Shown one piece after another: positions 27,026-62,300 of a DNA stretch of 64,000 bases. The stretch lies in assembly GCF_000003815.2 (NCBI RefSeq), contig NC_049987.1, forward strand, positions 14,836,484 to 14,900,483, written 5' to 3'. Position 1 is the stretch's first letter; each line of letters opens with the position of its first letter. Made by a program: the position numbers and the translations under genes. The DNA is from Branchiostoma floridae (lineage: Eukaryota > Chordata > Leptocardii > Amphioxiformes > Branchiostomatidae). The notes beneath the pieces were generated by a model. The model saw only the letters and a list, made by a program, of their open reading frames with translations. It had not been told where the DNA came from and made no database searches.

Positions 27026-30000
27026 CTAGTCGTCTTCACTCTCCCCTTCGTTGAACATGTTGGCGAGTTTGGAAAACCTTGGTCCCCAGTCGTTCAAGTA
27101 GTCGTAGTTCTGGTCCCCGCCGGAGCTGCTGGAGTTGAGGGAGCTGAGGGACCCCGCCAGCGAGCCCTCCCCCTCGTCCTCGTACGGAATGAACTCGTCC
27201 CGCGCGCCCAGGTTGTCTCCTAACTCCTCGTCGTCTAGTCTGGTGTCAATGAACTCACCAACATCGTTGGAGTCGGGCACCTGGAGGAAGGGGGAGGGGG
27301 GCATATTTGAGCTAAGTATGTTTTAACGGGGGAAAGACTTACAATAATCTTTGACCAGAGTGACAAGAATCTGTGCCACCCCAGTAGCAGCACCTCAGTA
27401 TCAGTAGTATTGTTTTAGATAGTCACGTGCTCTCGCTTGATGACCTCGTTATCGTATGGAATCACGTGATCTTGCTCGGTGTCTGCCATCTTGTTTTGGT
27501 TCTGTGTAATCTCTGGTACATTCACGTTCGCTCACTTTTACATTCCGTAATTACAGTAAAAAAAAAGATGAACAAAAAATGACGGAAATTCTACTCCGCA
27601 GTCTATTTTATTTCCTCGAAAAAGTTTTATCGGAAGAAGTAGATGATATCGTACCTTGCTTGTAGGAGAGGCCCTGGTCATAGTTGCGTTCTGCCGCAGT
27701 GCGTTGATGTCGTACGCCTCCTGATCCTCCTCGCCGTACCCCTCCTCCTCGTACTTCACAATGTTCTCGCGAGACTCGGCGTCAGCGCTGATGTAGTTCA
27801 GACTCGCCCTCTTCTTCTCACGGACGTAGCGGCGGCGGAAGATGGCGAACACGATCACGAGGACTGCACATGGCCAAAGAAAAATCATTAGAAAAATCAA
27901 GCGATAAGCAAACTTTAAAAACGAGAAGAAAGATTGATTTCTTCAGCAAAACCTACTATACTGTTACTTCAACCAAGCTTCAACAAACGGACATAAGTCA
28001 GAATTTGAGTTCTACTAGGATTCACATCTCGTAATTCTATTGTCCTGGATTTACTGTATTACAGTGTAGTATTTGCATAGGCTGTCTTCAGAGAAGTGAA
28101 CTAGGGTATAGTCTCTTCAGAAGCATATATGAACAGGATCTTGCTCTGACATGACTCCCCTCGTGTAAAATCAAAATCCAAAGCGGAAATAAGATGGCGC
28201 CGGGATAATGTCAAAATCCAAAATGGCGGCGCCCATGGATGCCGACAAAAACACATCAGGAAACTTACTGAGTAGGATCAGAAGGCAGACACATATGGCC
28301 ACCAGAGCGAACGGAGAGATGCTGACAGGGCCGGACACTCGGAGCGCTCCGCAGTCTTTTCCTGTGTATATAAAGACGACCACGTTAGAAACAAACAAAC
28401 AAACAAAGAAACGTATATAAAGACAGTGAGAACTCGCAATGTAAGCGCAAATATACATATAGAAAAGGTTTGCAGGTTCATGCCATCAATGTCACACAAA
28501 AAAAGAACGAAAAAAAAAGAAGAAATTTCGAGTATGGAGTAAGTTCATGAAAAATACGACCTGAAGTAATAGTACAACTGTATCTAGAAAAATGAATGGC
28601 AAAACATACTGTTGAGAATCCTGGCTTCCGGGTCGTCTGCGCATGTGCAGTTGAATCCTCCAATAAAGCTGAAACAGGTGCCCGGGTCGCACGGGTTGTT
28701 CGCACAGTTGTCAATCACGTTACGACACAGGTAGCCGTCGTACCCCACCTTACAGGTGCACTCGTACGACCCCACCAGGTTCCTACACGTGCCCACAACG
28801 CAGTTGTTCGGGAGGCTGGAAAAGACATAAGACGTTTAATGGATGTGTTTCAATCTTTCTTTTCGGTGTCAAGGTTGGACTAAATGACCGTAACCTGCTA
28901 GCCGCCATGCTAGATAGAGATGCTTGGAGCACCTCTTATTACGAAGACGAACTGAACTTTCAATCGTAGTGAGCATAGACCCTTTGCTAGTGACCCTGTT
29001 TCTGGCCTACTAGGTGTACTTCTGGACCTTAAGATTTAGATTTTCATTGAGATTTCATTGTCTCACCTGCACTCGTCTACGTCATCTTCACAGCTCACGC
29101 CAGTGAAGCCCTGGGGGCAAGTGCAGTTCCTACCGGAGATGCTAGGGGTCGGAGAGGTGCCCTCGATGCAGGTGCCGCCATTTTGACACGGGAAGTTGTA
29201 GCAGTTTCGCTCAGTGTCGCAGTTCACTCCTACAGAAAGAACAACACTTGAGGTTAGATGATATCGAGAGAAATGCTCATGAACACTGACATCCAGGGAT
29301 GTATTACATCTTAACTCATACTTTGATATCTACGTCTTTCTGCAAATACATTGCCTGTTATGTGCCAGCCTCATTATTATCGCAATGGCCAAGAACTTGG
29401 CAGTTAGCTTGCAAATCTAAAGCAGCATTTTTACCACCCCTCTACCCCCCTAGCCACCATCATACCTGGTGCACCGAAATCTGATGATCCAAGGGGGAAC
29501 GTGACAAATTAGAAAGAAAAGATGGTAAGTAATGAAAGGGGTAAGGTTAGTACAACGTTTAGGTCTAGCACATAACATTTACATACAAAATACAATGTGT
29601 ATGTAGGACAGAGACATCCTCTCATGACATGCAATCCGTCCTCGCGATCGCGTAGTTAACGCCAGCCATCACCAGCCAATCACGTCACCGCCTTCAGCCA
29701 GGAGGCAACGTTATTGGCTGGTAACTTTCCCTTCATTCGCTCCAACAACAGAAGTGGCAGTGTCTAATTGGTCAATGACAGCAGGGAGAGTACCTGATTG
29801 GATGGCTCGCAGCCCGGTATACACAACGTCACAAGAGATAGGCCTGACATGAGAGGATGACTTGAATGGGATTCAACAACAGCGACACAAGCAGTGAAAA
29901 AGGTTGCTAATTAAGACCAACCTTTGTATTGCTCGGGACACTGGCATCTGTAGGAGTTCTCCAGGTTGATACATGTCCCTCCGTTCTGACACGGGTCTGA

Positions 30001-33000
30001 TTCACACTCGTCGATGTCGATACAGACGAGCGGGTCGGCCCCGGGTGTCTGTTCGTTCCACCCCGGTTTGCACTCACACACGCCCAGGTTGCACACCTGT
30101 CCTACACCGGTACACTCCTTAAACAGGCAGGTGTCGAGCTCGTGGCACTGGTCAAAGGTGGTCTCCCTGTGGTGAAAAATAATGGTTGAAACACATATTT
30201 AAAACTTGGTCATGTTGGTACAACGCTACTCTTTAAGCAGAGGTTAGGCTCCGGCTGTTTTTTGACGTTTTTCTAGTCGTTTTTATCGGGCTTTCTATTT
30301 TGTACTGTATCTTGTATTGTTAGGTTTTGACAATACAATATACTGCTTGGAGAGCATCATCTTTTGTACTGTCACCAAGATGAATTGATTGCTCATCATT
30401 CACGACTCAACAATATGAAAAATTGAAAATACAATAATACAACAATAACATAAGAAACAATAACACATACCAGTTATAAAGACACGTACAGGCTACAAAA
30501 TCTTACACAGTTTTTAAGTTACAACTAACAACTCTCTTTCGATAATACGACCTTCTTGATGGCTCTTATTTTCCCATTGCTTCAGACTACGAATGTATGA
30601 AAATGTTCTTATCTACTGGCAAATGCTGACGTAAGGTGTTGGGTTCATGTTCTCACCTGCTCTCGATGGTCTTAGTCTTGAAGTCGATCTGATTGGCGGT
30701 TTCTTCCACGCTACTGTAGGACACGAAACGGAATTCTTCCATGCACCCCCTCAGGGACTCCGTCACTTCGATGTACTGTTTGGCATCGGTTGTCAGGTCG
30801 GTGGCGGGGTTTTTGAAGCCGCCAACATATAAGGAGTCGACGTTGAGCGAATGGGCCGCATCGGCTCCCTGTCCTGTGTAGTTAAGAAACGACAGACTCC
30901 ATGAAATATGCGACATTGTTTCTCTCTTTTCTTTCACTATTATTTTTCCAGAATTGTATCTTCGAGTTTTCGTGTGCAATCTCTGTTACCTATCCCCTGG
31001 CCCTTGGTCTGGTTTTTGTTCTGCTTTTATTTCCTCATTACAATTAACTCGTCAGAGAGCTAGTCGACTTGGTTGGCGAAAGTTTTGCGAATACTAGCAA
31101 AACTCTAGCAATCTACTGAAACATGACGAGATCTCGTAAAACCTCGCAACACGCGAGAGGCAAGAATGTGAGATCTCGCAAAATCTCGTCCTGAAATCTC
31201 GTAACACATGAGGTCTCGTAAAATCTCGTCGTGTTGTGCGAGAGTTTACCTTGGAAAGTGACCAGGCCGATGATATTGCCAGCGCGGTCCTTCATGGTGG
31301 CGGTGTTGGCGTCACGTTCGATGAACAGCTCCTGCTCTTGTCCGTCGTTAAATGTGTTGGTAGACTCGTAGCTCTGATCCGCGCCGCTTCCCTGAAGTAG
31401 TCAAGAGAAACTTTATGAAGTTGTACAGAATAGGATAAGATTTTTTCGGCAAATTTTGCTGTTGCAAGCAAATGAGAATACACAATACTATAGAAACGTA
31501 CCTTAGTGTTAAGCCTCAACACAGCTTTCCCATCCTTGAGGTAGACCACTAGCCAAGCGGGGCCTCCGAAGTAGAAGAGCAGACCGTTCTTAGCCCTGGG
31601 GGACAGACACGGAAAGTCAGTATCCACTGAATTACGATCAAAATTCAATCATCACATTTGGAGAAGCAAGACAACATCCCCAAGGACAGGACGAAAGGAG
31701 GAGATTGAAAGAAAGGAAGAAAAGAGAGAGAAAGAAAGAAAGAAAAGAGAGAGAAAGAAAGAAAGAAAAATAAAGAAATTAAAGGACAGAAAGAAAAGGG
31801 AACAAAGAAAGAAAGACAGAAAGAAATACTAGTAGAAAGAAAGAAATAGAAAGAAAGAAAGAAGACATGAATGTAAGGAAATTGCAATCTTACTTTGTCC
31901 TGAACTTGAAGCTGATGGTTGTTCCTGATCTGGGCTGCAAGTCAGCTTCAACCTTCATGTATGACCTTGAACTTCTCAAGGTCGCAATGGAGGGCGGGGC
32001 GCAGACAGGGCATGTCGGGACGTTCTGACCCGTGCCCTCCGTAGTGGAGGTTAGGTCAACTTCTCGTGAAGGACTTCCAACATACAGGTAGGAGATGCAC
32101 ACGATTGGGTAGTTGTACAGACGGTCGGATTGTAACTGTGGATAAAGAACAGCAAACTTAAACACAAAAGGCTACATGATATGATAATGCAGTACTGGTT
32201 GTGTAATCTCCAGGCAGATTTACCAGCGGCATAAGATAGTATTAAGCTGGCTAAGGAGTACAGATGGCCAAACGGAGTCATCAACAAAATACACTCCTAG
32301 AACGGCTTCACTCCTCTGGCAGCTTTTGATACTATCTAATGCTTGGGATCTGCTTGGAGATTATTGGTTGTGTAGAAAATGTTCACAACACAGCTCTCAA
32401 CATCCGTCCTCGTTCACCCCTTCGTTTTCTTCAAATGGTATCGCCCTGTCACTTTTGTGTCTTGCGTATTGGTCTTCCTTGTCTATAGCTGGACATCTTA
32501 CTTACCCTCAAGTCATTGACTTCTTTGTACCCGCCGATAAAGGTGTTCCCTAACAGGTTGGGGTCCGAGAAGGACAGCGTTGGCTGCACGTCCGTTAGAA
32601 CCGACAAGGGGGCGTTGCTGCCGTCGACGACCGCCGTCATCTGTCCGAGATGGTGCTCCCTCATGTTGGTGATGACGACAACGTGAGTCTGGTTGTGCTG
32701 GACGGGAGGGTTGTTCTCGTCTCCTATGAACATCTGTGAATACAGAAGATATTTTGATTCACAATACACATGATTTGTTGAGCACCTAGTCTAGCGATCA
32801 CTCCAAAGACAATGAAAACAGAATATTCACACGCGTTGAATTAAGCAGCCATTTGAGTGTTAGCCTTTCATAGGAAACAATATTCATACGGAGTATACGA
32901 TATCATAATGATAAGTGGCTATCGCACGACTGATATTCAATCATGTCAAAGTTGAAGTGTACGACCGTCGCCGGTGTTGTTTTTTAAAAACATCATTCTT

Positions 33001-36000
33001 ATTCATTCTTATTGGATGGTATTGTGGTTTCAGTTTTGCCTTGTCCTTCTTACGATACTTTTGTCTGTATCCAAGAAATTTTACATACCTCAAGAAGCTG
33101 TCCACTGAGCGAAGCCTCTATGTAAATCCGTCCGTTGAAAACACCCATTGAGAAGAAGTTCTGCGCTTGCCCGGCCTGGTAGATGAGCAGTCCTCTCTCG
33201 TTGCACGCCTTGAACTTTATCTCCAACTTGTCCTCTGCGCCGGCTAGAACCGGATTCTGAGACAGCTGCCATTTCAGGAAACCGCCCTTGTCCACGAATA
33301 TTTCAGAACTCGCCAAGTTGACTATCACCAGTAGTAAAACTGTACAAAAGCAGCAATAATAACAATATCGTTAGAATACATTCCTAGTAAAAAAAATAGC
33401 AGCCGAAATTTTGAATTCACAAGATAATTCTATGAAGCAACAATTTTAAACGGAATAGCAAATAAACTAGAGAACTTCAAGTGAAGCAATATTTAGCGCA
33501 AGTAATTGTGATATACTCCTCAATGTACAACTTTAAAACTAGGCTTTTCAAACGCAAAGGTTATGGTTTGTGCGATTCCTATAACGACCGCAAGATGTCG
33601 CTTGAACCACATCACCCTGGACAGACACCAAGCTGTCATGGGAACTTGTATCTTCCTTGGTAATGTCAGATTCTACGCCAGCTAATCATTGAGCTGCGTG
33701 CAAAATCTGGATCACTTAATTTCTGTATCGAAGCTAGACGTGAAAAATTGAAATACCAGGATCTAGAAATATCCCTGACTGAGTAAAAATTCTACACATA
33801 AGTCTTACTTTGGAGTGGATATATAAGAAGAGACTGGAACGCTGCAAAACACTAATATAGTTCTGTCGACTTAGCCATGACCCTGCCGACCCACCCTGTT
33901 AACAAGTTATTATCGTAAGAATCAGGGGTAATGCAGGCGGGGAATGTACCGACGCGGAGGAGGCGCAGGATTTGTAAACCAGACTGCCAACACCCCCACC
34001 AGACATAACCCAGCTGTTCGCCGGTAGCTATGGGGCCTTGCATGAGAGGAAAATGGTCAACCGATCGTCGATTCTTTTTCTATGACAAACACGGTTTGAG
34101 ATTTGTAGTATCCTAGTGTCCTTTTCTTACATTTCTTGATTGATAAGTGGATATCAAATAAAACTATTAAAAAAGATGACTCATTGAGATAACTTGCAGC
34201 AAATACTACATTACTGAGTCTAAATCGTTCCACGGAAGTTGCCTATCTGACAATTGCCCTTCTATTGCTTCCTTCATGACGTATTTTAGTGACGTAGTAG
34301 AAAATTGGGGCCTAGTCATACAGAAAGTATCCGCCATTTTTTTCACCTATCAGTCGGAAAATGTTATTTCGTACGGGTCAGTTGAACTGAATGGCCAGTA
34401 ATTAAAAAGAAAAGTGTCTAATTGTGTAAGATCATAAGCTGTTGATGCTAAGAGACTCTATAGATGCTTTTGTTTTGAAAGGGTACAACAAAGTAGACAT
34501 GTCCCCTTGTAGAGTAGTACGTTCGAAGTACTCAAATATTGGTCCGTGTACACAGAATTTGTCTTGTAATAGTCATGGTTGTACTTTCGAAACTTAGCTG
34601 ACTTTTATTTGTCTTTTCAATCTAACGGTCGACCCCATAGCTTAGCCGTACAACCACGGCCATTCCCATGAATGCGTGCGCCTTTTCCAGTGCTCTTTTT
34701 GAAGCCAAATCCACCACTCTTGTAGAAAAATAGCCGTATTATGCAATTTCACGGTAGTTTTGTCCGTTTTTCCAGTTGAGCCCCTCGTGGTTGATTGGAT
34801 TATGGAGTTCAGAGGGCACCGTCCTTGTTCAAGCCGCCAGGAATTTAATTTCTGGGGAAACCATTACCTCTCTGTAAGCCTCGTATTTTTAATGGCGACA
34901 TTTCTAAAAGAACTTTCAGTTGCTTGTATGTGATTCAAAACGCTGGCAAAATCTTTTAACAACAGTTGTGTTGATTCGAAGTTGTATCTGGCTATTCAGT
35001 CAATAAATGTATCGTTTCTATCGTATCAGGACATGTAAAAAAAGAAACTAAATGGTGTACTACTACTGGACCGAGCAAGATTTGTACTATCGTGTTGCAC
35101 CACAACATCTGTTGTGTTGGATCTTGCTCAGGCCCATATAACGACTCCATTGATATTTTCTTTTTATCTCCCTGGGTTACAGCTATTACAGCCTCTGCTG
35201 GTGTGTTTTCTTTTCTTCGGGCTTAACTGTTATAGCCCTTTTCTCAATGGTTTGTAGGCCTTTCCAGTGTTTTCAACGTTAGTATAATTCTGACTCCATT
35301 CACATATTTGCAGTGCCAAGAGAGGGGCAGAAAGGCGAATTTAGTCCGATTCATTCTAAGACCTTCTTTTCAAGTGATTTACTTCAAGTTCTTCGTGTGT
35401 ATCATCTTGTATAATGGATCTTAGCGTTAGGTCAATCGTTTAAAGCTGTCGGAATTCTACAGACCATTTCAGGAAATTGAATCTTAAGTATGATTCTCGA
35501 CCAAGAAAGGACAGCTCAAGCACTCAGACGAGTTTTGTCTTAAATATGTGAGACACAAATTCGGTAGAAATTGTAAGAGCGCTACAGTAGACCATTTCAG
35601 GAAATTGGATCTTAAAAAGTGATTCTCAAGCAGAGATTAACATCTGCCAGTCCGAAAATGACACAGCATTCCTGCCGTGGGCCAACCTTCGCTTGCCGCA
35701 GTTTTAAAAACACGCCCTAATTACAAGCCAAATGACTCCGAGCAGCGCTCAAATGACCGTGAAACGGCCCCAACATTCCCAACCCCCAGCAATTATCGAG
35801 GGGCTTCATGGCGAGAGAGTTACCAAAGAGTCTGTTGTATAGCCTCGATACTCAGTCTCTCCGCAGGGTTTCAAGCTCGTGTTCCTCGGCACTGTAAACT
35901 TCTATTTCTACCAACCAAATTACCCTGGATGCCAAAGTGTTTCCAGTGCCTACGGAAGGGGACAACGTGCTCCCAAGGAAATTCTACTGGAACTCTTTTA

Positions 36001-39000
36001 TTAGACCCTAAGCTCCCTCTGAGTTAGACCCTGAGTGGGGAAGTGGTGGGATAAACTAACTAGAATGACACTCAAATGCTATTCCTCAAGTCAAGGAGGT
36101 TATCTATAACCTCCTTGCTCAAGTCAAGGGGACTGAGACAAAATTCTTTGGGTACAGTATGTTTAAGAGGCCAGTAGCTCGTGCCGAAGAGCTGGACTGT
36201 CCGGGCTGTCCCTGGCAACAGCCTGGGTTCCAGATTATATTGCATAGACTACAATGACGCTAACGCTCAAGAGAGATCGTTTGTGTTCACATTGAATCCG
36301 CTTCGTTAATGTGAGGGTTTGAAGTGTGGCTGATTGAAGTCGTGTATTAGAGGTTTATTGTCAGGCGTATAGAGTCTGTCATTATGATTCAGACGTCACA
36401 TCCATGCAGTCTACAAAACGATATTGGTACTTCATTTAGCTGTATTCAAGCTATCCACATTTGAGTACGTGGGTATCAAAAAGGTGTCTATGTTTTCAAA
36501 AGATATGGTGGAGATTCTACCAGTGGAAATCGCGATCGGAGTCAACGGTATCAAACAGCGAAATCTTATATTCCAATCTCTATCGGTAAAACTGTCGACT
36601 TGCAATCTGTACCTTTACATGTATAACGTTACTCGTTTTACCTAGCGTAAAGTATAAAGCTTAAAAAGAAACAATATGATTGACTGATATGTCAATGTAG
36701 GGTATTTCTAGACGATGCAAATGCATCATTTCAAGTGTAGTCTCGACTCTCAAGTTTAAATATAACCGTCCCTTGTTTTCTACACCAGACGTCGAGACAA
36801 GCTATTGTAAATCAACACAAAGAAAGGCATTGAAAATCTGTCCTGTATTGTAATAACTTGTTCGACCACTTTGTGCGTCCGGCCAATCTTCGTCCCGTCG
36901 CAAAGCATGACGGGATGATGTCATTTCTTTGGTAACACCTGTGATAATAACTGTCGTCTGATATGACCTGTTCTGAGAAGAGTGGCATGGCGACCAAAGT
37001 TTGGGACAACCGTTTTGAAAAAAAAAACCTTTGGGAAGACAATAAAAGATACCTCAAGCGCTCATAGAATTTTCGTCATAGTATCTAAGAAGAGATTCGA
37101 CAAGTTGGTCAGAAATTGGTACAAATTTGGTCAGAAAGTGACTGGAAAAAGATTGGGATCGCCAACGTTGTTTATCACCTTTTCATACCTCAAATTTTAC
37201 ACACGCACCGCACAATCACACAAGAGATCTCTCGACTGTTGTCGCCTGGGGCGACCGACGGTCCAACCGCCGATACAAGATGGCGTCCCCTGACCCCTCT
37301 ATTGTACCCTGGGCTACAATCACCAAGAGAGAGAAAATACATCCTGGCGTCACAACAGATGTTAGAATTAAAGCAGAAAAGCCATGCGTTTATTGAGGGA
37401 CGATGGCCTAACCTAAAACTTGAGATCACTTAACCTAACGGACGAACGATACATAACAAATGTCCACATGTGTGACAGGGCGTTCGCACTAAAAGCATTC
37501 TTTGCAGCAGCTAATTTGACATCTGTCAGGGTTTTGAATCGGAGAGGGGGGGTTAAAGTATTCCATTGCTTCGGAATGCATTAGCGTCATAACTGGAACA
37601 CATCGGCCTGGAACCATGGAAAAAACAAGGTTTTAACGTTCGAATTTATTTTCAAGTTTGTATAAATGTACAAATTCATTATTTGTGAACACACAAAAAA
37701 ATGGGTCTTTCTCAAAGAATTAAAGCACCACAGCGTACGTGAAGATCGTTTTAAAAGATTATAAAAGGGTTCTTCCTCATTTTTCCCTTTTATACAAAAA
37801 AACTCACTTTAGTTACAGGAAGGTTAGATATTTCAGTGTAGGAGGTGAATACATACACCATTTACTCGGCGTTGGTCTTCGCAAATATATTCCCACCAAA
37901 ATGGTGCACATGTTTTGACGCCATTTTTCATGTGATAAGACTTTAAATGGGGTCAAACAGTAAAATTTTCTCCCCCACCCTAGGAAATGCAGCGATGTAA
38001 TCTCTTGTATACAACAACTGACCATGATTTGATTTTCTCTCAGATTAAAAGCTTAGAGCTCCCCTGGGTCCTAACAGTATATCAAATGTCTGACAAGCGT
38101 TGATTTAAAATCCCATATTTGAAAAAGTCTGGTGGTATAAAATAAACAGTAAAAACAAGCTGTCATTCATTATTACAGGCGTTTTGACCAACGTGTCTTT
38201 GGCCAGGAACTTAATTTGTTCCTTTTACTTAAGATGGCCACCCTAGAAGATTCAGACAGTCGAGGACGAAGGATAATACATAAAACACAAGATCTGTCCC
38301 AAGATGTCGTCCGTTCTTTTTTCAGGAGATCATATCAAGGTGACCGAGCTAAGCACGGATCAAAATAAATCATATTCTAGCCGCACTCTCTTCATAACAC
38401 TACACTGAGTATGCTTTTAACTTCATATTGAGTACGCTGACATCAAAACCATTAGCTTATTCATATTTTTGAAGAGCACTTTGAGGGAAAGATGATCTGT
38501 ATTAATGCAGACACTCGACATGACTTCCATTTGGAGTAGAGAGGATAGTTGACGATTTGGTCCGAACCGATCGCTATCAAAACTGCCTCTAGATCCTGTG
38601 AAGTTGCCAATACCTCTAACTGGACCTGACAACTGCACTGCTATCTCTATCCCCATCACCGTCTATGTGTACATAGGGAAACGAGGGGCCGGGTCTCTTG
38701 GGTAATATCGAGTTTTAGCGATGCCCTGATTCACTGGGGTAGATAGACTAGGGGCAGTCTATTATCACACTTCGCAACTACACGATTATTGGCTAGAGCT
38801 GCAGGTGCCGAGACAAGTTTACACTGTAGAATAGGATGTGACAGTAAACTACGTGCCCCCCTCCCCACCCACAGAAACTATGGACAGTGATGGGGTACAA
38901 CGAAGTTTCACCGTCTTCCACAATTATCTACTGTTCTGAAATCTTTTTTACAATGTTTTGAGTCCCAACTACATGCCCCCCTCCCCACCCACATAAACTA

Positions 39001-40892
39001 TGGACGGGGGGTATTACAACATAGTTTCACCGTCTTCCATAATCATGTACTGTTTTGAAATCTTTTTACGATGTTTTGAGTCCCAACCACATGTTTTCAC
39101 CAGACTAATCGCTCCTTGGCAGACAATTCTGTTTTCTAGTAATGCATATGAATTTTCCAACAGCTCTTTCAGATTCCAACAACACACATAACACATCTGT
39201 AGTCGCAGTCTGTCATTAGGAACTATGGCCAGAATTCTCCCCAGAGAATATATTAATGCTTCAAAGCCATCTTCATAAAACAGCGCCGACATTGTATATG
39301 GGCGGCTTACAAACATTTTGAATACCAAATTCTGAACTGAATACGCAAGAAGCTCTTGAGCTATAACTGTATGTAGAGTTAGATGTCGCGGTAAGAGTTA
39401 GTCTGGATGACAGCCTTGTTAGGCTCACATCCGCCCCGTGGTGCCTGTTGGAGTGACCGTAAGTATAACCAGGATGGTACCCAGGCTAATCTATAGAGTA
39501 CAATGATGATGAAATAATCTAGAGGAATTTTTGTGGATAAACTAATCATTTTCGGAAATACAGACAGTTCTACTGAGTTCATATAAAAGTAGATATAATG
39601 CTGACTTGAAATTTATTCTGTTTTTGTACGGACGAAAGTATGACTAAGGGCGCGGTCACATAGGTCGTGCGATCGTCGTACGATTTTGATGCCATAGGAT
39701 TTTCAAACAGGCCGTGACAGAACCAGCCACCGACATAGATCCAAAACAGCATTCTGTGTACCAAGAAAGACAGTTGGACTTTGCAGGAGACGTACATTTT
39801 TTATCCTCCAAAAGGCCCAAAGTTAACATTCGTACGACGATCGCACGACCTATGTGACCGCGTCCTAACAAGGGGCCTAAGATGACTGAATCTGACCGGG
39901 GATCGAACTCGTGACTTCTGCTTACCGAACGCTAACAGGAGAACACACACACCACCTGACGCTGATGTATGATGGGTCCCGTGGGATCTCCCAACCTTTT
40001 CTGTCACGCTCCTCTTTATATCTGTCGCAGATGAGGACACAGAATCGCGGAGCGTGCCCCCGGACTTTAATAACGACAAGTCATCGTATCGTGCACCGCA
40101 TCCGTCATACTGATTACAATCCAGGGACCGACAGGAACGATTGACCCATATTTTTGCATAAAGTCGCGTGTGTCACAGCAGCGAGGCGTTCATTCATGCG
40201 GTATAACACATTTGGGAAATGTTCTCAAAAACAGCCAGAAAAAAACGACCATTAAGAGAACCAGCTTATCCGAAATGCAAACGAAAAAGAAATAAGAATA
40301 TAGAATGGACACGACACGACAGATATTCAAAACGAAACATGAAATTCCATGATGGTATGATAAATGTAGTATGAGTTCATTCATGCTATATAAAATATGT
40401 CACAATGCTTAAGAACAATCTAGTGCAGAAAGAAACACCGCCAGCAACAAATACACAGGAGCCAATTCGCCCCTAAAACAAGAATGGACATAACAAATAT
40501 TTCACATGAAACGCGAAATTCCATGATAGATTTAAGAGATTGGCGCCTTAACTGGTCTAGCCTATGGCTTTAAAATACCCATTCAAAAGACGACAATAGA
40601 CTAGAATGAACAAGACAGCCTGTCGACCAGTTTTTCAATCACACAGCGCTAATTCACATTCTTGACAGCTACCATATCTCAAACGATGCTACCTAGATAT
40701 TTTAAGAAGATCTTAACGCTAATCTTAAGAAGCACTGTCTTCCTTAAAGATGCGCATGCCTTCAGCTACGCTGAGTAAATACTAGGAAAACAGATAAGAG
40801 CATCGATGACAGAGGTATAACATACTGGCGCACGTTGACTCCACAAGTCAAGAAGTTAACGTTAAACAGAACGTACCTATAGTTCGCTCCAT
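27026..40892 (-). CDS. Classic-type cadherin without cadherin repeats (LamG/EGF ectodomain), amphioxus BbC type
   Basis: Coding exons, transcript order: 40877-40892, 33089-33339, 32506-32733, 31894-32135, 31502-31595, 31250-31391, 30657-30873, 29922-30166, 29067-29229, 28610-28815, 28269-28361, 27655-27863, 27026-27280. All are GT-AG and phase-consistent: 2361 nt, 786 aa. The signal peptide [17 protein letters not shown] joins exon 1 (phase-1 donor gtacgt) to exon 2. LamG-like domains lie at about 22-195 and 225-390. Five Cys-rich/EGF-like modules lie at about 398-605, two starting with calcium-type D-x-D-E-C or DVDEC. One TM helix spans about 618-641, then RRR. The tail (642-786) is unmistakably classic cadherin: [20 protein letters not shown] (p120 site) and SLSSLNSS...[19 protein letters not shown] (beta-catenin site), ending EDD. 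No cadherin repeat and no DxNDN/LDRE motif occurs. Known parallel: the two B. belcheri BbC cadherins. Confidence 0.93.
29615..29859. mobile_element. Small TIR element rich in CCAAT cores, in a cadherin intron
   Basis: The end catcctctcatgaca at 29615 is inverted at 29845-29859 (tgacatgagaggatg) with one mismatch. The 245 bp between include four CCAAT/ATTGG cores and are not coding. It lies between exons 29922-30166 and 29067-29229 and is probably a MITE; the CCAAT cores could bind NF-Y but that is speculation. Confidence 0.45.
31120..31248. repeat. TCTCG-rich short repeat cluster beside a cadherin exon donor
   Basis: Units like atctcgtaaaatctcgt occur several times, with ctcgcaacacgcgag and gtgttgtgcgag in inverted orientation. 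The cluster ends right at the donor site of exon 31250-31391, so it could fold near that splice site. Confidence 0.4.
31686..31866. repeat. Imperfect (GAAA)n microsatellite in a cadherin intron
   Basis: About 180 bp of gaaa/gaaag units with interruptions, purine-rich on the plus strand. On the transcribed strand it is a pyrimidine tract upstream of the acceptor for exon 31502-31595, but too far away to be the tract used for splicing. Confidence 0.8.
35459..35628. repeat. Pair of direct near-repeats
   Basis: A segment reading agaccatttcaggaaattga then atcttaa...gattctc near 35460 recurs near 35590 with small changes, offset by about 127 bp. Nothing coding is associated. Confidence 0.5.
38848..39085. 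repeat. Tandem duplication, units of 120 and 118 bp
   Basis: Unit 1 (38848-38967) starts actacgtgcccccctcccc and unit 2 (38968-39085) actacatgcccccctcccc. Both continue through aactatggac, gtttcaccgtcttcca, ctgttytgaaatcttttt and gttttgagtccca. Divergence is mild; it is noncoding. Confidence 0.8.
39645..39868. mobile_element. PIF/Harbinger-type MITE with TAA target duplication
   Basis: The ends gggcgcggtcacataggtcg (39648) and the reverse complement of cgacctatgtgaccgcgtcc (ending 39865) form terminal inverted repeats of about 35 bp with one mismatch. TAA flanks each side (39645-39647 and 39866-39868). A TWA target duplication plus GG-starting ends is the hallmark of PIF/Harbinger. At 218 bp with no coding frame it is non-autonomous. 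Confidence 0.75.
39894..39936 (-). repeat. tRNA-like 3'-half fragment (possible SINE piece)
   Basis: Read on the minus strand, the segment ends agtcacgagttcgatcccc, which contains a B-box (GTTCGATCC) preceded by gcgttcggtaagcagaa, the arrangement seen in the 3' half of tRNA-derived SINEs. A complete 5' half with acceptor stem is not found, so it is not called a tRNA gene. It directly abuts the MITE. Confidence 0.35.
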
Positions 40893-41150
40893 TCTGTTGC
40901 GTAGTACAGCGTTCACAGACAAGCCTTCACGCCACAAATGCGTTTGAGGGTACTGACAGAAGGATGGAACGATTTTCATGGTCCTAAAAGTCTGACCGGA
41001 AGCGACGCGTGCGGACGGAACTACTGTTGTGAGGTAACCGGCCTGTGGCCTCGCCGCTATTGTCATGCACACCCCCTCAACTGAACCGAGCAACGCACAC
41101 CAGCACACTGACTCACGGGGAAAATTTCATTATTCTGATTGAATTGCCCA
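40893..41150 (-). promoter_or_regulatory. Cadherin 5' leader and likely promoter
   Basis: The 250 bp upstream of the cadherin ATG (40892) are richer in CpG than the surroundings and contain at least two upstream ATGs on the minus strand (near 41067 and 40982). A candidate acceptor (ccttctgtcag) lies about 65 bp upstream of the ATG, so a noncoding upstream exon is possible. Transcription could start here or further right. Confidence 0.35.
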
Positions 41151-44100
41151 GATTTGGTAAGTGAGTCCCCACTGAATGGCGTCCCGACAGGAAGCTTTTC
41201 TCGCCTTACTTCACATCCGACGGCTAGAACTAACCAAATTATGGAAATCATACAGTTTGATACTTTTCTGCTTTGTGTTGTTGAGGAATGCCCCCCGAGC
41301 CAACGGTTGCGTAGCGAGACCGGCGGTCGCTCAAAGAATCCATGAGAGCAATTTTCAAATGGGCTCTGTCACACACACACTGGCATACATACACAGGACG
41401 TTACATCCGAAATATAAACTTGCACGATTCTTGCTCTCTACCCTCTGCGTTTTAAGCCGCATCATCTGCTAGACTGCTGCTGTATTTAGATCTATTTACT
41501 GTGGACGGAGTCGTGTAGATCTATATCACGGGTTTGTCTGGACAATACATTATACGGGAGTTCTTTGGTAGGATAAAGCACAACTCCGTAAACATTCTCA
41601 CGCCCGTGGCTCCACTGAAACCCCATGTTTTTCCTTCCCTATGGAGTACACTACTGATAAGACAATGTTAAAACAGAGCTGCTCATACAAGTGGACTCGT
41701 CTTGAAAAAGCAGAGGACCAAAAATGGGAACGAAATTTTTCAAATATTTTACCATAAATTATGATGTCTTTCTAAGTCCATTAACTAGTTCTAGTAGTTG
41801 GCGCCGACCCAGCCGGCATGTGGTGTGACCCTAGTGGCGATATCACTCATTTTCCGATTTCGTGACTTTCGAGATCATAAAACTGCTACCAAATCTTTCA
41901 GTGGCAAAATAAGATCACACAGAAGTGGATACTTAATAGATTGGCAACTGGTTCACCATTAGAAGATACGGCATTGAAAATAGCCTAGTTTTGGGACCTT
42001 TGGTAGGACCAAGGACATTATACGATGTCCTTGGTAGTATACACGGCGTATAATGATACTGTTCAACAAATTAGATTCTCTTTAAAATACCATGCCTATC
42101 ATATACTGGAAACGCCCTTAACACCGTGAATTTGCAATTTCAAAAGGGTCAAAAGTCTCTGCTAGTATGCTCAGAGATAGACTGCACTTTGAGTCATGAT
42201 GTTGTTAACGTTGAGTAAATACTAACACAAAAGGTGAACTAAAACAATTCACAAATTTTGGCATTTGTACAAGCTTTGTATTCATTAGTTATAAATCACG
42301 ATACCGTGAAGTAAGTGCATTTAGAGTGGATGAAGACTTCTTCTAAGGGGTTGTATTTCTTCCGTGTCATGATTAATGCATGTAACGGCGTCTACTGGCT
42401 AAAATGTAGCTAGCACTGGGGCATGTTTAGTACAACAACACTCACACTGCCTGATCTAATAGCACACTTCCACTGTAAACACGTCAGGGGGGATCTAAGG
42501 AGTCCTGACATATACCCAAAACATAATTTGATGGAATTACGACGAGTGTTTCCTCCATTTACAGAGTGTTTCTGTGACATTTCCTGACTCCGCCAAGCCT
42601 TTCTTCAGATCGCCGAAGTTCACGACCGAGGCGAGGCAAACAATGCGCAGGGGTCGATGGGTAATCTAAACAAACATGGCGTCCCACCAAGAAGCGTTTG
42701 GGTAAGAAAGAAGATTGAACGAATTGATTGGAGGAGCCGTTTTAAACACGGTCTTTGGAAAAACGTCCGCTAATTTACTTTAGGTTCCTATTTAGACATG
42801 GGGTAAGGCGTTAGGAATGTCATTTATGCATACCTAATTGTTGTTAAGAATTTAGAGTCCTTCTGTTAGTCTTGTAATGACTGAAATGAGTCGAGGGGAT
42901 TTTCATTATCACGCATTTCAAGGGCATGAGCGCCATTATCATTGGGGTCGCATCCTTGTGATCTTTCCTCACAATAGCAGATACAACACCTGCTAGACAG
43001 CAATGGGAATTCGTTTTTCATCATTGTCAACAATGTCAAATGCTTTAGTGACATCTACGAATAAACAACGTATCAAGTAATAATTGCGACTAATGCAATA
43101 AAACACGTGTCATGACGTTAATAAATCAAATTACACGGGAGCCAAACATGGTTCAGTGGAAAATAAAGAATGTTAAGAACGTTATATGATTAGTATGATG
43201 AATGGTGGTAGAAAATGAGAAATATTTGGTACATTATGTAGTTCAGTGTAGTTACAGCAGATGTTGATCGCAAGCATTCTTCCGAGATCTTTCAACACGG
43301 AGATTAATCTAAACCCTTGTGTTGGGTTGGATCAATACAAAATACCAGCCATATTTTATGAAATTATGAATCAATATACTCTGACATTAATCTCACTACC
43401 AATTACGTTTTATTCCCGACGTACAGCGTAAATTTTTGTCACAACTTCACTTTCAGGCCTATGCTTTCAAGGGAGAAAATTTAACCTAAATTCAAACCGG
43501 GCTATGTGTAACAAGAACCAAGTGTTATCCTGCAATTCTTATCGCTGATTCTTTCAACGATGTCGCGTAGGAGAGGTATTCTAAGTCTGGAAAGAGAACT
43601 TTGGAACTCGGAAAAGAGATAAGAAAGAAGGTCGCGCCTTTTTCTGGGAGATATAACGCGGTTGTTCTCTTGCACACGTCTTAGTGTCGTCAAGGAATAA
43701 ACTTCTTCTGTTGAAGACATATGTCTCCAGTATCTTCAGAAAACAAATACGTAAGAAGTAGTAAAATGAAACAAATGTATTGAGTTATTTTTGCTATGCT
43801 ATCTCCAAGTTGGTACAGCATTGTACTGGGTACATTCGGTCTCCTGTTACAAATTATCCATAAACTTTTCACCGATAAAAGTTCAAAGGACCAAAGACTA
43901 AGATTTAGTGATGAAATGTCGTCTTGTCGTTGAGTTTATCTGTGAGAGGATCCAGACAGTTTGGTTTGACATTGGAACAAGGTCAACATGACATTGCGTG
44001 CGCAAGGTTACACGTACGTAGGTGTCATGTCAGCTGGGGTATGGAGAAAGACACAGGAAAGAGTGGCTAGATAAAGTAAAGAAAGAATGCGTCTGTGGGG

Positions 44101-47100
44101 CGCTATATAAGTTATAAAAACGTTTGAATTGTTCATTTAGCAACGACAGTTCAATCTATAGTATGTACAATGTGTACGTTTTGGTATTTATAGTGCCATA
44201 ATTAGGCATTGATGCTTTAATATATAGCAAAGAGGTAAAAAAGTCTTTTTTAACCTCCTTGATCATCGCAAAACCGTTTGAAATATTGATGTTTATTCGG
44301 GACTTTTGAGTATTTCTACATATAGAAGTTTAGTAGAATAGTTTGCTACGTAGAAAAATGTACGTGCCTTACAAAGAAAAATGTTCTTAAAAGAATATGA
44401 TATTGAAGACAAGTAAATTACGCTTTTTTTCGGTCAAATCATTATTGGAAGGTTGCCCTTTTGGTTAGACAACTTTTGCTTGTAATGAAGAAGTTTACTG
44501 TCAATAAGCGTTTTCGGTGACGAAACAACACAGGAAATACTATAATCTGTAACTCTGTTAGCGTTATGGTAGAGCATAAATCTGGACAAATTTCCCGACA
44601 CAGGAAATGCTTTCTGAGGAAGATCTAGATTTCCAAGGAAATACCAGTTCGGAAGGAAGCTAGACGGGAGGGACTGTTAGTAGTTAGTCTGGAATTTTAA
44701 GGAAAAGTCTAAAATAGTCATTTTTCCTGCGACAACAGGTGTTTGAAACCTGTCATCACCTAACTTCGAACGCTGGAAAACAAAATGAAAAAAGGAACTT
44801 TAAACGAAATCTATGCTACGGAAACATCGAGTGCAACAATATGTTATGGTAGAGAGAATTTGGGTTAAACAACAGATAATTATGCGTACCTGAAACTGAT
44901 TAAGGAGAAACCAACGATGCCGAATCTGCGACAGAACGAAGTAATTACATTGTAGATTGCCTTGGGAATTATTCAATGACTTTCGATCAATAACTGGAAC
45001 CAAAACGCGAAAACACAAAATAGGCCATATTCCAACCAAAATCCTTTCCTTGTAAGCAAAAAAGTATTTCTACAAAGTAAGCGAAAACTATTTACGTTTA
45101 TGTTTTGAGCAAAGTAGTACTTTTTGATCAAAGCAAGTATTTTCGTTTATGTTTTGATAAATCAACTTTCCAGTGAGGCCACGTAATTGAAATTCAATAT
45201 ACAACGAAGTAACAGGGGACACATTTCTTCCACAAAACGTGGCCACATCTATAATAGTCCTAATTAAAGCCCTTCGTTAACGCTTGGGAGTTAATGAAAC
45301 AGTGGGAATTGTTATTGGGTGATAGACTTTATATACACCATTATCGTTAGAGGGGTCATGATAATGTGAATTTAATGAAGCCCCATCAAAGAAATGAAGT
45401 GTCCAAAGCTCTTTCGCATATGATGTAATCATTTCAACGCGTCTGCGGTAAAATGAATTACCCCAATTTAACGATTGTTCTAGAAAGGCCATACTACAAA
45501 AGGATAGCTCTATGGGTAATCTATAAATAGGACCATCGCAAAGCGATGATTGGACCGAGATGCAATGCAGTGATAAGGACCAATCATAATTAGATTGTCA
45601 GTTTGAACCCGAGAGCTATCTGACGGTTAGGCTTGTGCGACAGGTTACATACCATATAAGGAATGTGGGTGTGTAGTTTATATAATTAAAAGGCTACGTC
45701 ATCGGTACAGCCCATCTCCTTATAAGGAAGTGGCGACCCCTTTCGTGACAGGTAATCTACAGGCTTTAGACACTCGCGTCAAAGTATATAATAGATGACA
45801 TGAAGAGATAGGTGGGTTGTCAGGAATAGTAGCATAGGTGGGGTTAGAGACACAATAACTCATCAATGATGTCATGGAGTTTATTTTCGCGCCATGCGCG
45901 AGCGCCATTTGATTGACAGGTCTATAGGACGATCGACACATCATGTCTCATACTAGTTTGTAGATTCTAAGGTTATTTCAGTACTATATAACAACGATGA
46001 AGTGATACAGAGAGAAGTATTGTCATGATTCAACTATTTTAGAGAAAAGGAAGTCGTGGATGAGTTTAAAACGGAAGTTGGAAGAAGCTGACCGACAGGT
46101 GGCAAGTTAGAAGTTCCTGAAACGTCGCTTATCCGATAGGAACTGGATTTAGACGAACAAAAGAAACTAGGATCAACCAGACAAGAAGGAACTGTGGCGG
46201 AATTTGCGAAATGCTTTAAATCTGACTGAAACACGACAATGTCGGTACACACGTTGACAAGTAGAGATGGCAATGTGTCCAAAATTGGTTAGTCTAGCAG
46301 ACTGACTACACTGCCTATCATTGGGAGAAAAAATTGCCAGGAAAGTTTTGCTACAAGAGGAAACATGAACTTAGCGTGGACTGACTCCCCTGGCCAATTT
46401 CACGATTTTTTTTGCCGAATTCTACGATCCCCGCACCCCAGTAGGAAGGCCTAACAGAGACTAAAAATTGGAGGTGTTTGGACAATTTTTGGCTTCACAA
46501 TTGGCCAATTACGTTGACTCATATTGGTTGGGGTTCTGTGGCGGGCAACATCAAAGCCTACAATTACATATCAAAGCTCGTAAATTGTGACATTGACGTA
46601 GAAACTGCTATCATCTTTTCCGAACTGGTAGAAAAAGGGCAAGGCACGTGGCGTCTGTCTAAGCCAAGCCACCACGCCAACACAAAACGTTGTAGATCAT
46701 GAAAACTAGCAACTTATAAAAACTAGTCTCTTGTAAGTAATCATGGATTTATGTAGATACCATGGAGTAATAATGAAAGAAGCGGTATTCCACGGACTAT
46801 TGCGAACACTAAGATACATCGGTAAGATCAAAGGCTCATTTGAACTGACTCATCGAAATCATTGATCGTTTGAATCATACACTTTCCGTCATAAAATTTA
46901 CCACCGGTTGCTCGTATGTTATATGATTCATACTCAACCCCACCGTTATGGTATAAGTCAGGTTCTTTATATAGATATGATAAGTGAAATATAACAGTCA
47001 TAAGATAATTGTTTGATATTTATGGAATATGATAAATTTGGGCTTAGTTTCAAGGCTCGCACGAAGGAACATTACTTATTCGACATTTTCTGACTGAATT

Positions 47101-50100
47101 TTTATTGAAAGTAACTCGTTGTCATAGTTGGTGCACACATGTAGAAAGACAGCTGGACGCTTGTATAAAGCAGCTGTTTTTGCACCCAAACAATGGCAAC
47201 TTTTTGTCAAAGTCCAGTGGGAATATAATATTCTTGTTTATGTCTGGCACCGTGTAAAGATATATCATTTCAAGCTTCATTTGTTAAGTCTATATGCAAA
47301 TTGTTGAACAGTACGCTTTAAAACCAGATGTTTTAGAAAGAGAGTCGCTCATTGGCTCAGACAAGTAAGTAGGTATATTCGCGCGTGCAATGCTAGGGCA
47401 TACATGTACCTTTTACCTGAACTTTATATTTCCTCTTCCACCAGGGAATGTATCAAGAAAAGTCTAACGGTGTGTAGACGTGTCTGAAGATGTCACATAA
47501 ATAATGGACCACACAGGTGACACACACTAATGCAGGAGGAATGTCATTGTCACCGTTCTATTGTTCTACCTGTCAAACGTCAGGCGACTCAAGATGGCTA
47601 CAGGTAGAGTAGGTCGTGCCGAGAATCTGATTTTGTTGGATACTTGGGAAGTTTAGTAGACACTTGTTGTCGGATGCAGGTGATAGATATAGATGATACA
47701 ATAACGAAGTTGAAAGCACTTCGTCTTCCACATGAGATTTATTAGAACATTTCAAAGTGGCAACCTAAAGTTTTGTACAAGAAATTGTGCTCAATAGTCA
47801 ATTTGGAATCCGTTTTTTTTTCATGTATATTTCTAATGTTTTAAGGAGATTTTTTCTACATTGTTTCGTTTTTTATTCTATATTTATGTTGTACTTTTAT
47901 TTGGAAAATTTGTAATAAGAATATTCGAAAATGAAAACATCTCTTGTTCATGAATTGTACTGTATCCTAACACTAGTAACAGTTATAAAGTGTTTTTTTT
48001 TCCAAAATGTCATCGGCCGTCTACATTGGGGTCTAGGGACAGGAAGCTTCTCTAAGTTATCAAAAAGCATGGGATTCTTTCATAATTTCATTTTAATCTA
48101 TTGTTCTTGAGGTATGAGCTCTTTTGTGTTAAATCACATGACAGGAAAGTTGGGTGATCAGCTACAAAGAATAGTGTCTGAAAGTTCAATTTTACATGTA
48201 CGGATAGGAAACTGTACAGACACTTGTCGCACTTCGTGGAGGTCCTCAATAATTATATTATCTGATTGTATTATGCATATGTATGGTATGTGGACAAGGT
48301 TAGGTCGAAACTGAATAGAGGAAGTACCTCATTTACAAAAGGTAAAATCAGTTCCTTTGGATTCAATAGCCAAGTTTCTAAATGGTTCTAATTGTCTTGT
48401 TCTTCTTTCTTCTTTATCGTGCTCGCGTTCGCAAGGGTTTTACCATAACACTATCGGTTTCTTACACCACAAATGCGCAACAAGAAGAGTGAACAAGAAA
48501 CCCTTACAAGACTTATTTTCATAAGAAAGAAGGTGTGAAACCAGGCCTTCAGGGTGTGAAAAATCTACCAGACAAATTCACGGTTCACATGAATATTGAG
48601 AGGAAACTTCAAGGCTCGAAGCGATCTCTTTTTTTGCATCGGAAGAAAAAATAAACAGGAGGCAAAAGAAGGGGTATCGGTTCCACACCAGTGCACACGA
48701 TTTGTTGACGTTATCGTTTTGTGTGTGTCGCTGAACAAACGTTGTTGATTCTAGTAATCGCGGTGGCGAGAGACGCACTTGAATAATTTGTTATTCTAAG
48801 TTCTAACCCCTGTCCTATGGAATGTCTGTTTTTCGTCTTCTTTTTGGAAAACATAACTGTCTCAGCTTTTTCAACTTTTAACCTCTTGTGGGTTAAGAGA
48901 AGAGTGGCGTTTTGCAATTGTGTGGTTTTACATGCTGAGTCAGAATTTGAGTCATCTTTCGTGAAGTAACCTTCTAGAATGTGTGAATTTGAAAAAAAAT
49001 CTCCGATACGTTTTAGAAGAATGGTCCATATTACATCTTATAAACATGGCAAAGAACATGCTAATTAACAGCACGCCCAGTGACACCGAATCACTAACTG
49101 CCCCCCTCCCTTACTTCACCTTATCGGTACTTCTCGCCTAGTTGACGGACGATCGTCCGAAAGACAAACAACACAGAGCCCCCTATATAAACAACTGTCA
49201 GACATGCTAACTGGTACGGGTGGTACAAAAATGGCACGCCTTTTGTCAGTTTCACTCCCATGCAGTATGGCTTCACGTTTTCTATCGACCATTCAAGGTG
49301 CTTGTTTTCCCGGGTATTCTTTTGTTGGTGGTAAAAAGTAAACAGGAAAAAATAGATCTCTTCTTGGAAAGCACTGCCTGTGTGGTTGTGTGTATGGATG
49401 ACACACATAGCACTCACTGTTGTTTACATAAGTGTGCAGTCAGTCTTTGTGTACACAACGCTGAGTAAAGATATGGGATACTACTAGTTGTACTAGTACA
49501 CGATCTTCGTTCTTGTATTGGCAATGCCATTGGTAAACGCTTGCTACCAGCTATTGCTATCAATGTTGACTGTACTTCAGTACTTCAATGTTATTCCACA
49601 ACGGTTTACAAGCTACACCAGACATACGATCTCTTAAACTTTCTCTTCTTATTGACATCGTATACGAAGTAGACTATAGGCACTGGACAAAGAACCCTTT
49701 TTGCCCTCTATTCCATCCGTGTAATTGTCGTAACTCTTTGTAAAGATTGGCAAAAATTTTAACATAATCTTTGAGATAAATACGATTTCATATCAATCGG
49801 TTTGCACAGGAAAACTGTAAGTGTTGTGTACTCTCAAATCTCACACGAAAAACCTGAGAGACCAATCAGACAAGATTTCCCGCGAAAACTAGACTAATTT
49901 AGGAAGAGATTGTGAAATATGTCTGGTTTCCATGGCGATTGTTCGCTGAGGTGCGCATTATCCACTTTGTCAGGTGGGCATTACCTCCACAGGATTTATT
50001 CGTCTCGTCGCTTTGTTTACGCGACGTGTTTTCTCCACCTCGGGATGAAAATGGCGCCTAATTATCGAAATGTTCCAACAGGGAAGAAGATTGTGGTCAG

Positions 50101-51759: not shown

Positions 51760-51906
51760 CTGGTAGAAGGAAAGGTGAGAGGCCGTCCTTTCTTCTGTGT
51801 CGCATCGCTGATGTCGCCTCGTAATCGCCTGTCGTCCCAAGAAACCTGAGCTCTGATGAGACGTCTTGGGAATTTCACGCTTGTTCTGGGTCAACTCGAG
51901 GACGAC
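51760..51906 (-). other. Isolated minus-strand exon candidate (147 nt)
   Basis: On the minus strand an acceptor (ttcgttccag) precedes 51906 and a consensus donor (ctaccag/gtgagt) follows 51760. The 147 nt between are open in one frame (VVLELTQNKREIPKTSHQSS at the start, ending SHLSFYQ). An in-frame ATG at 51930 would also make it an initial exon. It lies upstream of the cadherin on the same strand and could be a leader exon of it, or part of another gene or noncoding RNA. The protein is not recognised. Confidence 0.35.
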
Positions 51907-53432: not shown

Positions 53433-53445
53433 GGGGGGGGGGGGG
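53433..53445. repeat. Poly-G tract
   Basis: Thirteen consecutive G residues preceded by G-rich runs (gggagggtgtga); this could form a quadruplex on the plus strand. Confidence 0.8.
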
Positions 53446-56966: not shown

Positions 56967-57384
56967 ATCTGGTGGCCTCGAAGTGACGGCTGCGACTCTT
57001 CGGTCATTAGGCGGGTTCTGTCCGCTTCGGAATTCCCAAAGTCTCGGCGGGTAGACTCACTCAGAAAGGAAAGCTCTCAGACTTTTTTGTTGTTGGAAGG
57101 AAGCGAGTTATTATAGGGTACAAACGCGGTTGAAGGGCGGGTATTCTTTAGTGAGGAGGCCCGGGACAAAAGCGCTGGAGGCGAAGCGAGCTTTGCCATC
57201 TGGGAGACGTGCTGTGTTGTTGTGCTCCGGGGCAAGTTGGACTAGTTGTGTCACCTCGACTCAGCACGGGCACTTTATAATGCACTCAAATGACTCAATT
57301 ACAAGACTAAGCTAAAAACAAGTCCACAGAGGCTGCTAGGATGAGATGGGACAACTGCATGCTTGTTCCAGATGTGCGCGTATG

Positions 57385-57443
57385 TGGTGTGTATGTATGT
57401 GTGTGTCAGTGCGTGTGTGTGTCTGCGCGCGCGCGTGTGTGTA
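57385..57443. repeat. (GT)n/(GC)n microsatellite
   Basis: Alternating tgtgtg, gcgcgcgcg and gtgtgt dinucleotides, potentially Z-DNA forming. A similar GT tract lies in an SRRM1 intron at about 6581-6617. Confidence 0.75.
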
Positions 57444-62220: not shown

Positions 62221-62300
62221 TACAGTCAAATCTGCCTAAGCCGATGACCTGTCATTTTTGTCCGGTCCCTTTGTGACCGTCTTGAGCAGGTTTGACTCTA
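62221..62300. mobile_element. Short 80-bp relative of the 20090-21000 element
   Basis: It starts tacagtcaaatctgcctaag and ends cttgagcaggtttgactcta, an imperfect inverted pair matching the ends of the larger element. It also contains the shared gacctgtca / ccggtccc core. It probably represents the basic MITE unit from which the longer composite grew. Confidence 0.6.

Follow-up and report, generated by a model that had tools for sequence, protein, structure and literature searches.

The window, a 64,000-nucleotide stretch of the Branchiostoma floridae genome, very probably encodes a classic cadherin without cadherin repeats that would serve as an adhesion receptor of adherens junctions, and whose ectodomain is shared with an apparent chimera on C5 carrying a Tie2-like tyrosine kinase. 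The window gene itself belongs to a kind of cadherin already known from amphioxus; what is new is the copies of its ectodomain on C5, which apparently run into a tyrosine kinase.

The window gene and its first exon

On the minus strand, exons from 33339 down to 27026 join in phase and translate into two LamG domains, EGF-like modules, a transmembrane (TM) helix and a classic-cadherin tail. Exon 2 (33089-33339), which is found in both C5 copies, holds the signal-peptide core and the start of LamG 1; exon 3 (32506-32733) continues LamG 1, and exon 4 (31894-32135) runs past it through a cysteine-bearing linker to the start of LamG 2, which occupies exons 5 (31502-31595) and 6 (31250-31391) and ends in exon 7 (30657-30873). 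Exon 8 (29922-30166) is cysteine-rich and EGF-like, and exons 9 (29067-29229) and 10 (28610-28815) are EGF-like; exon 10, with phase 1 out, is the last exon in common with the C5a kinase gene. By hydropathy, a membrane stub and the first part of the TM helix lie in exon 11 (28269-28361). The remainder of the helix and a juxtamembrane p120-like site follow in exon 12 (27655-27863), and the beta-catenin-binding domain and stop codon in exon 13 (27026-27280). A possible poly-A signal on the same strand (24560-24565) is the sole AATAAA/ATTAAA within the 2.5 kb searched past the stop. No Rfam match and no tRNA were found.

Pfam recognizes Laminin_G_2 (1.1e-20, two stretches) and EGF (7.8e-15) in the translated protein; LamG 1 taken alone, with exon 1 left out, scores 6.5e-6, above its cut-off and weak by profile. 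The EGF-like modules, counted by eye, number four or five. The tail matches the cadherin family PF01049 (5.6e-20, residues 730-778) and, in the PDB, E-cadherin in its complex with beta-catenin (1i7w, 1.9e-20). E-cadherin's p120 site, EEGGGEEDQ, aligns with EEGYGEEDQ of the window protein, one core residue differing (GYG versus GGG); in the beta-catenin site it is the middle that departs from E-cadherin. These putative sites are, by sequence, near-canonical, as the preliminary description had proposed, and the predicted protein has both features of a classic cadherin, a beta-catenin-binding domain and a juxtamembrane p120 site.

Where does the protein begin? There must be a coding exon upstream of 33339, because the frame of exon 2 offers no ATG downstream of the stop that precedes it. 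The preliminary description chose 40892-40877 on the minus strand (MERTI plus one base, joining in phase 1) and reported an in-phase join of 786 residues. With this provisional exon 1, the gene has 13 exons in phase with AG/GT borders, and its 2361 nt make 786 codons and a stop. Phase and borders hold for exons 2-13, but the first exon is insecure. Its donor, TAG/GTACGT, scores 7.9, with A at -3 and G at +4, and it is one of 32 first-exon candidates on 64000..33340 (donor score at least 4.5 by a matrix from general knowledge, at most 25 codons). Shuffled sequences held a mean of 3.72 exons of at most 46 nt with an equal or better donor, and 1.74 when a purine at -3 was included, the real sequence having 3; such an exon, purine included, fell within 33340-41000 in 31% of shuffles. 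The exon is thus of chance quality in shuffles, and it has a strong rival at 51805-51760 on the same strand (MRHRRKDGLSPFLLP plus one base, same phase, donor CAG/GTGAGT).

The rival has the top donor of the 32 candidates (1.5% of the 200 shuffles did as well) and a purine at -3, and it would supply a charged n-region and a long hydrophobic core. It would, however, create an 18-kb intron; the candidate first exon of a paralogue (MKSAK, C9:23303947) likewise has five codons; and scanned candidates are prone to chance, the 1.5% having been computed at the rival's own score. Comparison of the upstream sequence with the fetched loci gave 19 matches in all and none in seven of the loci (L024, L025, L032, L035, L042, L043 and L044), and the paralogues offered only chance-prone candidates. 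We put the chances as even that translation really starts in 51805-51760, giving a 796-aa protein, or that two promoters each use one of the candidates. In view of the chance-level quality of the one candidate and the strength of the other, the length of 786 aa is provisional.

Relatives in the genome and the kinase copies on C5

A genome search with PF01049 gave six matches, all 11 candidates being scored, and a query with the TM and tail gave 13, none on C5, C17 or C8. Two more tailed members lie on C9, at 12.03 and 23.28 Mb. These are 2.8 and 8.4 Mb from the window gene and hence not the tandem paralogue that had been proposed; within the window, every tblastn match at E<=10 that did not come from the gene or from its own EGF exons had E>=1.2. 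In the C17 copy similarity is lost inside the TM exon. C6 carries a repeat-bearing classic cadherin, which we infer to be of type III and at which the LamG query listed no match. One family tree and its identity set were computed without exon 3.

The C5a ectodomain is 92.3% identical to that of the window gene over 600 aa, and nine exons are equal in length and phase, with dN/dS of 0.11. In C5a these ectodomain exons are followed, across a phase-1 intron, by another TM and, in frame, the N-lobe of a Tie2-like tyrosine kinase; the last EGF exon borders this intron at C5:3514829 and the TM exon at C5:3514453, and the kinase exons lie at C5:3512292-3510891. The kinase part matches PF07714 (7.3e-27) and, closest in the PDB, Tie2 (3.7e-33). 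GSGNFGEV and AIKVLK stand in frame with the TM, and the reading of the kinase extends to roughly position 121 of the 258 in the profile, short of HRD/DFG. Searches for the catalytic loop of the C5 kinase listed nothing at C5:3.51 or 3.66 Mb among the candidates scored, 134 out of 1264 in one search and 150 out of 496 in the other; most of these were long kinases encoded by a single exon.

Is this arrangement one gene? From homology and the open frame, C5a is apparently a chimera of ectodomain and kinase. That it is instead a pair of adjacent genes, or an error of assembly, we consider unlikely. In favour of an error, C5a and a second copy, C5b, differ at only 3.4% of silent sites, so that the two might be unmerged haplotypes. 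Against this, the last EGF exon and the TM exon of C5a lie on the same strand, 375 bases apart, with a compatible phase-1 join, and the reading, made without the first exon and with one starting base supplied by hand, has no stop in 826 codons. The fetched C5a stretch (L047) contains no N, there is no cadherin tail match on C5, and C5b repeats the order of matching LamG exons followed by kinase exons about 150 kb away.

Silent divergence between the C5 copies and the window gene is 0.38-0.42 and their introns are only partly alignable, which speaks against the C5 copies being strays of the window allele. Between C5a and C5b, 24 of the 391 ectodomain residues compared differ, and dN/dS is 0.92, replacement changes being about as frequent per site as silent ones.

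Absence of cadherin repeats

The preliminary description had the signal peptide running straight into a LamG domain, and indeed exon 2 places the signal-peptide core directly before LamG 1. None of the 14 Pfam families at E<=1 for the window protein is a cadherin repeat, whereas membership of the cadherin superfamily by repeats takes at least one extracellular repeat. A model of the extracellular cadherin (EC) domain gave nothing below E 0.3 over the window and nothing at E<=1 over the fetched C9 stretches, where 2,600 of 20,000 upstream bases are N. The linker motif [DN]DNxP is absent from all six frames of the window, and LD[RYF]E has three matches there, all on the other strand (the motif scan gave results for 3 of 6 patterns). 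In a control, the model recovered at 1.1e-19 an EC domain that had been withheld when it was built, and it matches 17 frames at the C6 cadherin.

Might this nevertheless be an ordinary long classic cadherin, with repeat exons upstream or in the first intron that were missed? Such exons, which the preliminary description had named as the outcome that would overturn its reading, would have room in a first intron of 7.5 or 18 kb. In the published outline, moreover, type III classic cadherins have 14-17 repeats followed by NC-CE1-LG1-CE2-LG2-CE3, so that a 3' fragment of one would resemble the window gene. An upstream frame of 28 aa on the gene's strand (41984-41901) reaches E 0.31-0.79 with the EC model, which is the noise level. 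Set against these points are the position of the signal-peptide core and the empty searches for EC domains and linker motifs in the window and the C9 stretches, together with 50-kb stretches around two paralogues of about 51% identity, likewise without an EC-model match. We reject missed repeats as very improbable. Still less credible is a decaying pseudogene, as the frame is open, the splice borders are intact and dN/dS against the C5 copies is 0.06-0.11, a value covering both lineages together.

Proposed function, origin and known systems

What might such a protein do? Most likely the LamG/EGF ectodomain of the predicted adhesion receptor makes cell-cell contact, homophilic by analogy, and the tail would recruit p120 and beta-catenin, and thereby actin; adhesion and catenin binding in the animal we infer. 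The window gene probably descends from a longer classic cadherin, such as the one on C6, that lost its repeats. Its ectodomain would later have been duplicated to C5 and fused, by way of the phase-1 intron, with a Tie2-like receptor's TM and tyrosine kinase, which would give one recognition module, presumably common to cadherin and kinase, two intracellular outputs; this order of events and the function of the C5 kinases are conjectural. More tentatively, the cadherin and the C5 kinases, with their shared ectodomain (92% for C5a), may interact with one another, or with a common partner, across cell contacts, in which case adherens-junction contact could be read directly as tyrosine-kinase signalling. 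The two C5 ectodomains may themselves be drifting apart in what they recognise.

By itself, the window gene adds one more member to a known amphioxus kind with adhesion machinery and no cadherin repeat. One genome, however, holds a repeat-bearing cadherin on C6, three tailed repeat-less ones on C9, the C17 copy and the kinase-associated copies on C5. If the chimera is expressed, these amount to a natural series of swaps between the extracellular and the intracellular half of an adhesion receptor. Can a signalling receptor take over a junction ectodomain and still recognise the old partner? With an expressed chimera the question becomes testable.

The repeat-less cadherins of B. belcheri are named BbC/Bb1C and Bb2C, and amphioxus BbC cadherins have a LamG/EGF make-up. 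By their titles, published studies describe amphioxus classic-cadherin-related proteins without cadherin extracellular repeats at epithelial adherens junctions (Oda 2002 Evol Dev; Oda 2004 J Cell Sci), two of them with distinct adhesive specificities (Oda 2004 J Cell Sci). The window gene is best read as one of these repeat-less classic cadherins of the BbC kind, the likeness, a classic tail without cadherin repeats, being drawn from the titles. Of the earlier assignment to this kind, the tail and the missing repeats stand, but the paralogues are not tandem and the first exon is insecure. As far as those titles go, two members were named in 2004, against three tailed repeat-less members on C9 of B. 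floridae, none tandem; and unlike the published pair, this genome also holds copies in which no tail was detected and others associated with a kinase.

Type III classic cadherins share with the window protein the tail and the membrane-proximal LamG and cysteine-rich EGF modules, but where the published outline gives them 14-17 repeats the window protein has none, its chain starting at a LamG domain. Among PDB sequences neurexin (3poy) comes closest to residues 1-397 (1.4e-11), and it has a LamG ectodomain in common with the window protein, whose tail, however, is that of a classic cadherin and rules out membership of the neurexins. RET is a kinase with cadherin-like outer repeats; C5a carries instead the LamG-EGF ectodomain of a repeat-less cadherin. 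Tie2 is closest to C5a in the kinase, yet the ectodomain of C5a is 92% identical to that of an apparently intact cadherin of the same genome.

A cadherin tail on LamG and EGF modules

The cadherin gene on the minus strand of the window is built of exons 2-13 (33339-33089, 32733-32506, 32135-31894, 31595-31502, 31391-31250, 30873-30657, 30166-29922, 29229-29067, 28815-28610, 28361-28269, 27863-27655 and 27280-27026), all joined in phase at AG/GT borders. Adding the minus-strand exon 1 of the preliminary description (40892-40877) brings the product to 786 aa, as had been described. Pfam identifies two LamG regions in this protein, several EGF-like ones and a classic-cadherin tail, and the first LamG, scored alone, stands above its cut-off at 6.5e-6. 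Two of its segments are hydrophobic, residues 3-23 and 608-647, consistent with a signal peptide and a single TM helix. The beta-catenin site described for the tail has its counterpart in E-cadherin: the tail aligns at 1.9e-20 with the fragment of that protein in the PDB structure 1i7w, a complex with beta-catenin, and the alignment takes in SLSSLNSS and a segment of 21 residues. Judging from this anatomy, the LamG/EGF modules would mediate adhesion, and p120 and beta-catenin would connect the tail to actin.

Are cadherin repeats really absent, as was first proposed? No repeat is among the 14 Pfam families matched at E<=1 by the protein, and the linker motif [DN]DNxP has zero occurrences in the six frames of the whole window. 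The motif LD[RYF]E occurs three times in those frames, always on the strand opposite the gene. A small EC model, which recovered a left-out control at 1.1e-19, gave no match below E 0.3 among the 2189 frames of 20 aa or more in the window. On a 65-kb stretch around the classic cadherin of contig C6 it matched 17 frames at E<=1, so that the method detects repeats where they are present in this genome. At the same threshold no frames were matched in 50-kb stretches around two further tailed genes of contig C9, at 12.03 and 23.28 Mb (529 and 3,287 N bases), nor in the 20 kb upstream (2,600 N bases) or 10 kb downstream of the window; these flanks yielded none of the remnant repeat exons for which a search had been suggested.

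Which exon begins the protein? Because the frame of exon 2, which begins with a segment of 12 residues, contains no ATG after the stop that precedes it, a further coding exon must lie upstream. The five-codon MERTI exon at 40892-40877, earlier presented as the signal-peptide exon, may be genuine, yet its quality does not exceed chance: 200 shuffles held on average 3.72 short exons whose donor was equally good, and the real sequence holds 3. The rival at 51805-51760 has the strongest donor among 32 candidates, a strength that 1.5% of shuffles reach (the threshold being chosen post hoc), and encodes a good-looking candidate signal peptide. In one paralogue, however, a candidate first exon also has five codons, which favours a short exon 1. 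With either model, a tandem repeat of about two copies of a 119-base unit (38847-39093) lies inside the first intron. Elsewhere in the window, adjoining plus-strand frames at 21467-22773 hold three SH3 domains altogether, and an Arg/Ser/Pro-rich plus-strand frame at 11444-12298, with no Pfam match, looks SRRM1-like by eye, resembling a splicing-matrix protein with SR repeats.

Relatives of the tail and of the ectodomain

In the assembly of 513,431,437 bases (window at C9:14836484-14900483), PF01049 has six matches: on C6, on C9 at 12.03 Mb, 14.86 Mb (the window gene) and 23.28 Mb (two), and on C7. A TM-and-tail query gave 13 matches at these loci and a further match, at E 0.185, at another site of C7, with none on C5, C17 or C8. 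An ectodomain query gave 40 matches (47 of 47 candidates scored). These brought in paralogues on C17 and C8 and, on C5, two near copies; C219 and C11 match weakly.

The tailed paralogues on C9 have ectodomains about 51% identical to that of the window gene (exon 3 excluded). They lie 2.8 and 8.4 Mb away and are therefore not tandem, contrary to the arrangement first supposed. At the 23.28-Mb paralogue (C9:23282640-23283271) there are two consecutive tail exons, of which the second is short and carries a TAG in the frame that matched, possibly an alternative or decayed tail. The C17 copy (C17:12775001-12784500) shares 95.7% ectodomain identity (exon 3 excluded) with the 12.03-Mb gene, a likeness that ends within the TM exon; past this end, on the other strand, is a frame that by eye is reverse-transcriptase-like (821-2491 of that stretch). 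The C7 tail match, at C7:1311176-1314301, falls within a 937-aa open frame, perhaps an atypical cadherin with a putative catenin site.

Apparently kinase-tailed copies on C5

C5a is a putative ectodomain-kinase chimera on the minus strand (C5:3521173 to 3510891). Its nine ectodomain exons, 2-10, have lengths and phases identical to those of the window gene, with 92.3% identity over 600 aa (dS 0.379, dN 0.040). In its EGF exons each of the 30 cysteines coincides in position with one of the window gene, as does a thirty-first at 605, although this one lies in the following exon, which the two genes do not share. The last EGF exon is followed by a phase-1 intron, a TM exon other than the cadherin's, a short juxtamembrane exon and three protein-kinase-domain exons. 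Read short of the catalytic loop, C5a has 826 stop-free codons from exon 2, and its kinase part matches PF07714 at 7.3e-27; the closest PDB entry is Tie2 (3.7e-33). The second copy, C5b, some 150 kb away, has six LamG exons and matches to the three kinase exons at 3660996-3659515. The stretches C5:3510001-3521500 and C5:3659515-3669889 thus both hold ectodomain near copies with Tie2-like tyrosine-kinase exons downstream, a single open frame having been read for C5a. Relatives of this kinase, 53-71% identical, are on C15 and C3 and may represent the donor family. Tyrosine-kinase clusters occur, for example, at C8:24.05-24.14 Mb, C12:0.60-0.98 Mb and C7:24.41-24.54 Mb, many with uninterrupted frames of 900-1000 aa; they look like an expansion of apparently single-exon kinases.

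Compared with the window gene, dN/dS is 0.06 for C5a and 0.09 for C5b (391 codons, exons 2-7), and 0.11 for C5a over exons 2-10. For C5a against C5b the ratio stands at 0.92 (dS 0.034, dN 0.032); replacement and silent differences number 29 and 8 in this pair, versus 24 and 86 between the window gene and C5a (Fisher p=1.2e-9). Any one of recent polymorphism, relaxed constraint and diversifying selection could produce the C5a-C5b pattern, and the two might be unmerged haplotypes.

Comparison with known cadherins and kinases

By their titles, Oda 2002 and Oda 2004 place amphioxus relatives lacking cadherin repeats at epithelial adherens junctions, with distinct adhesive specificities. Sasaki 2017 describes the type III cadherin layout and regards a reduction starting from that layout as a trend that is common; one of its figure legends names an amphioxus Bf-cadherin. 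The window gene alone belongs to an already known kind, and is probably annotated in public databases. The putative C5 chimera was not found in print among titles and the opening lines of abstracts, nor is it mentioned in the available part of a holozoan kinome paper (PMC8662651); the 2008 amphioxus tyrosine-kinase survey of D'Aniello, known through its citation there, may describe it. What seems new, rather than the window gene by itself, is an ectodomain module with two proposed outputs, cadherin and kinase.
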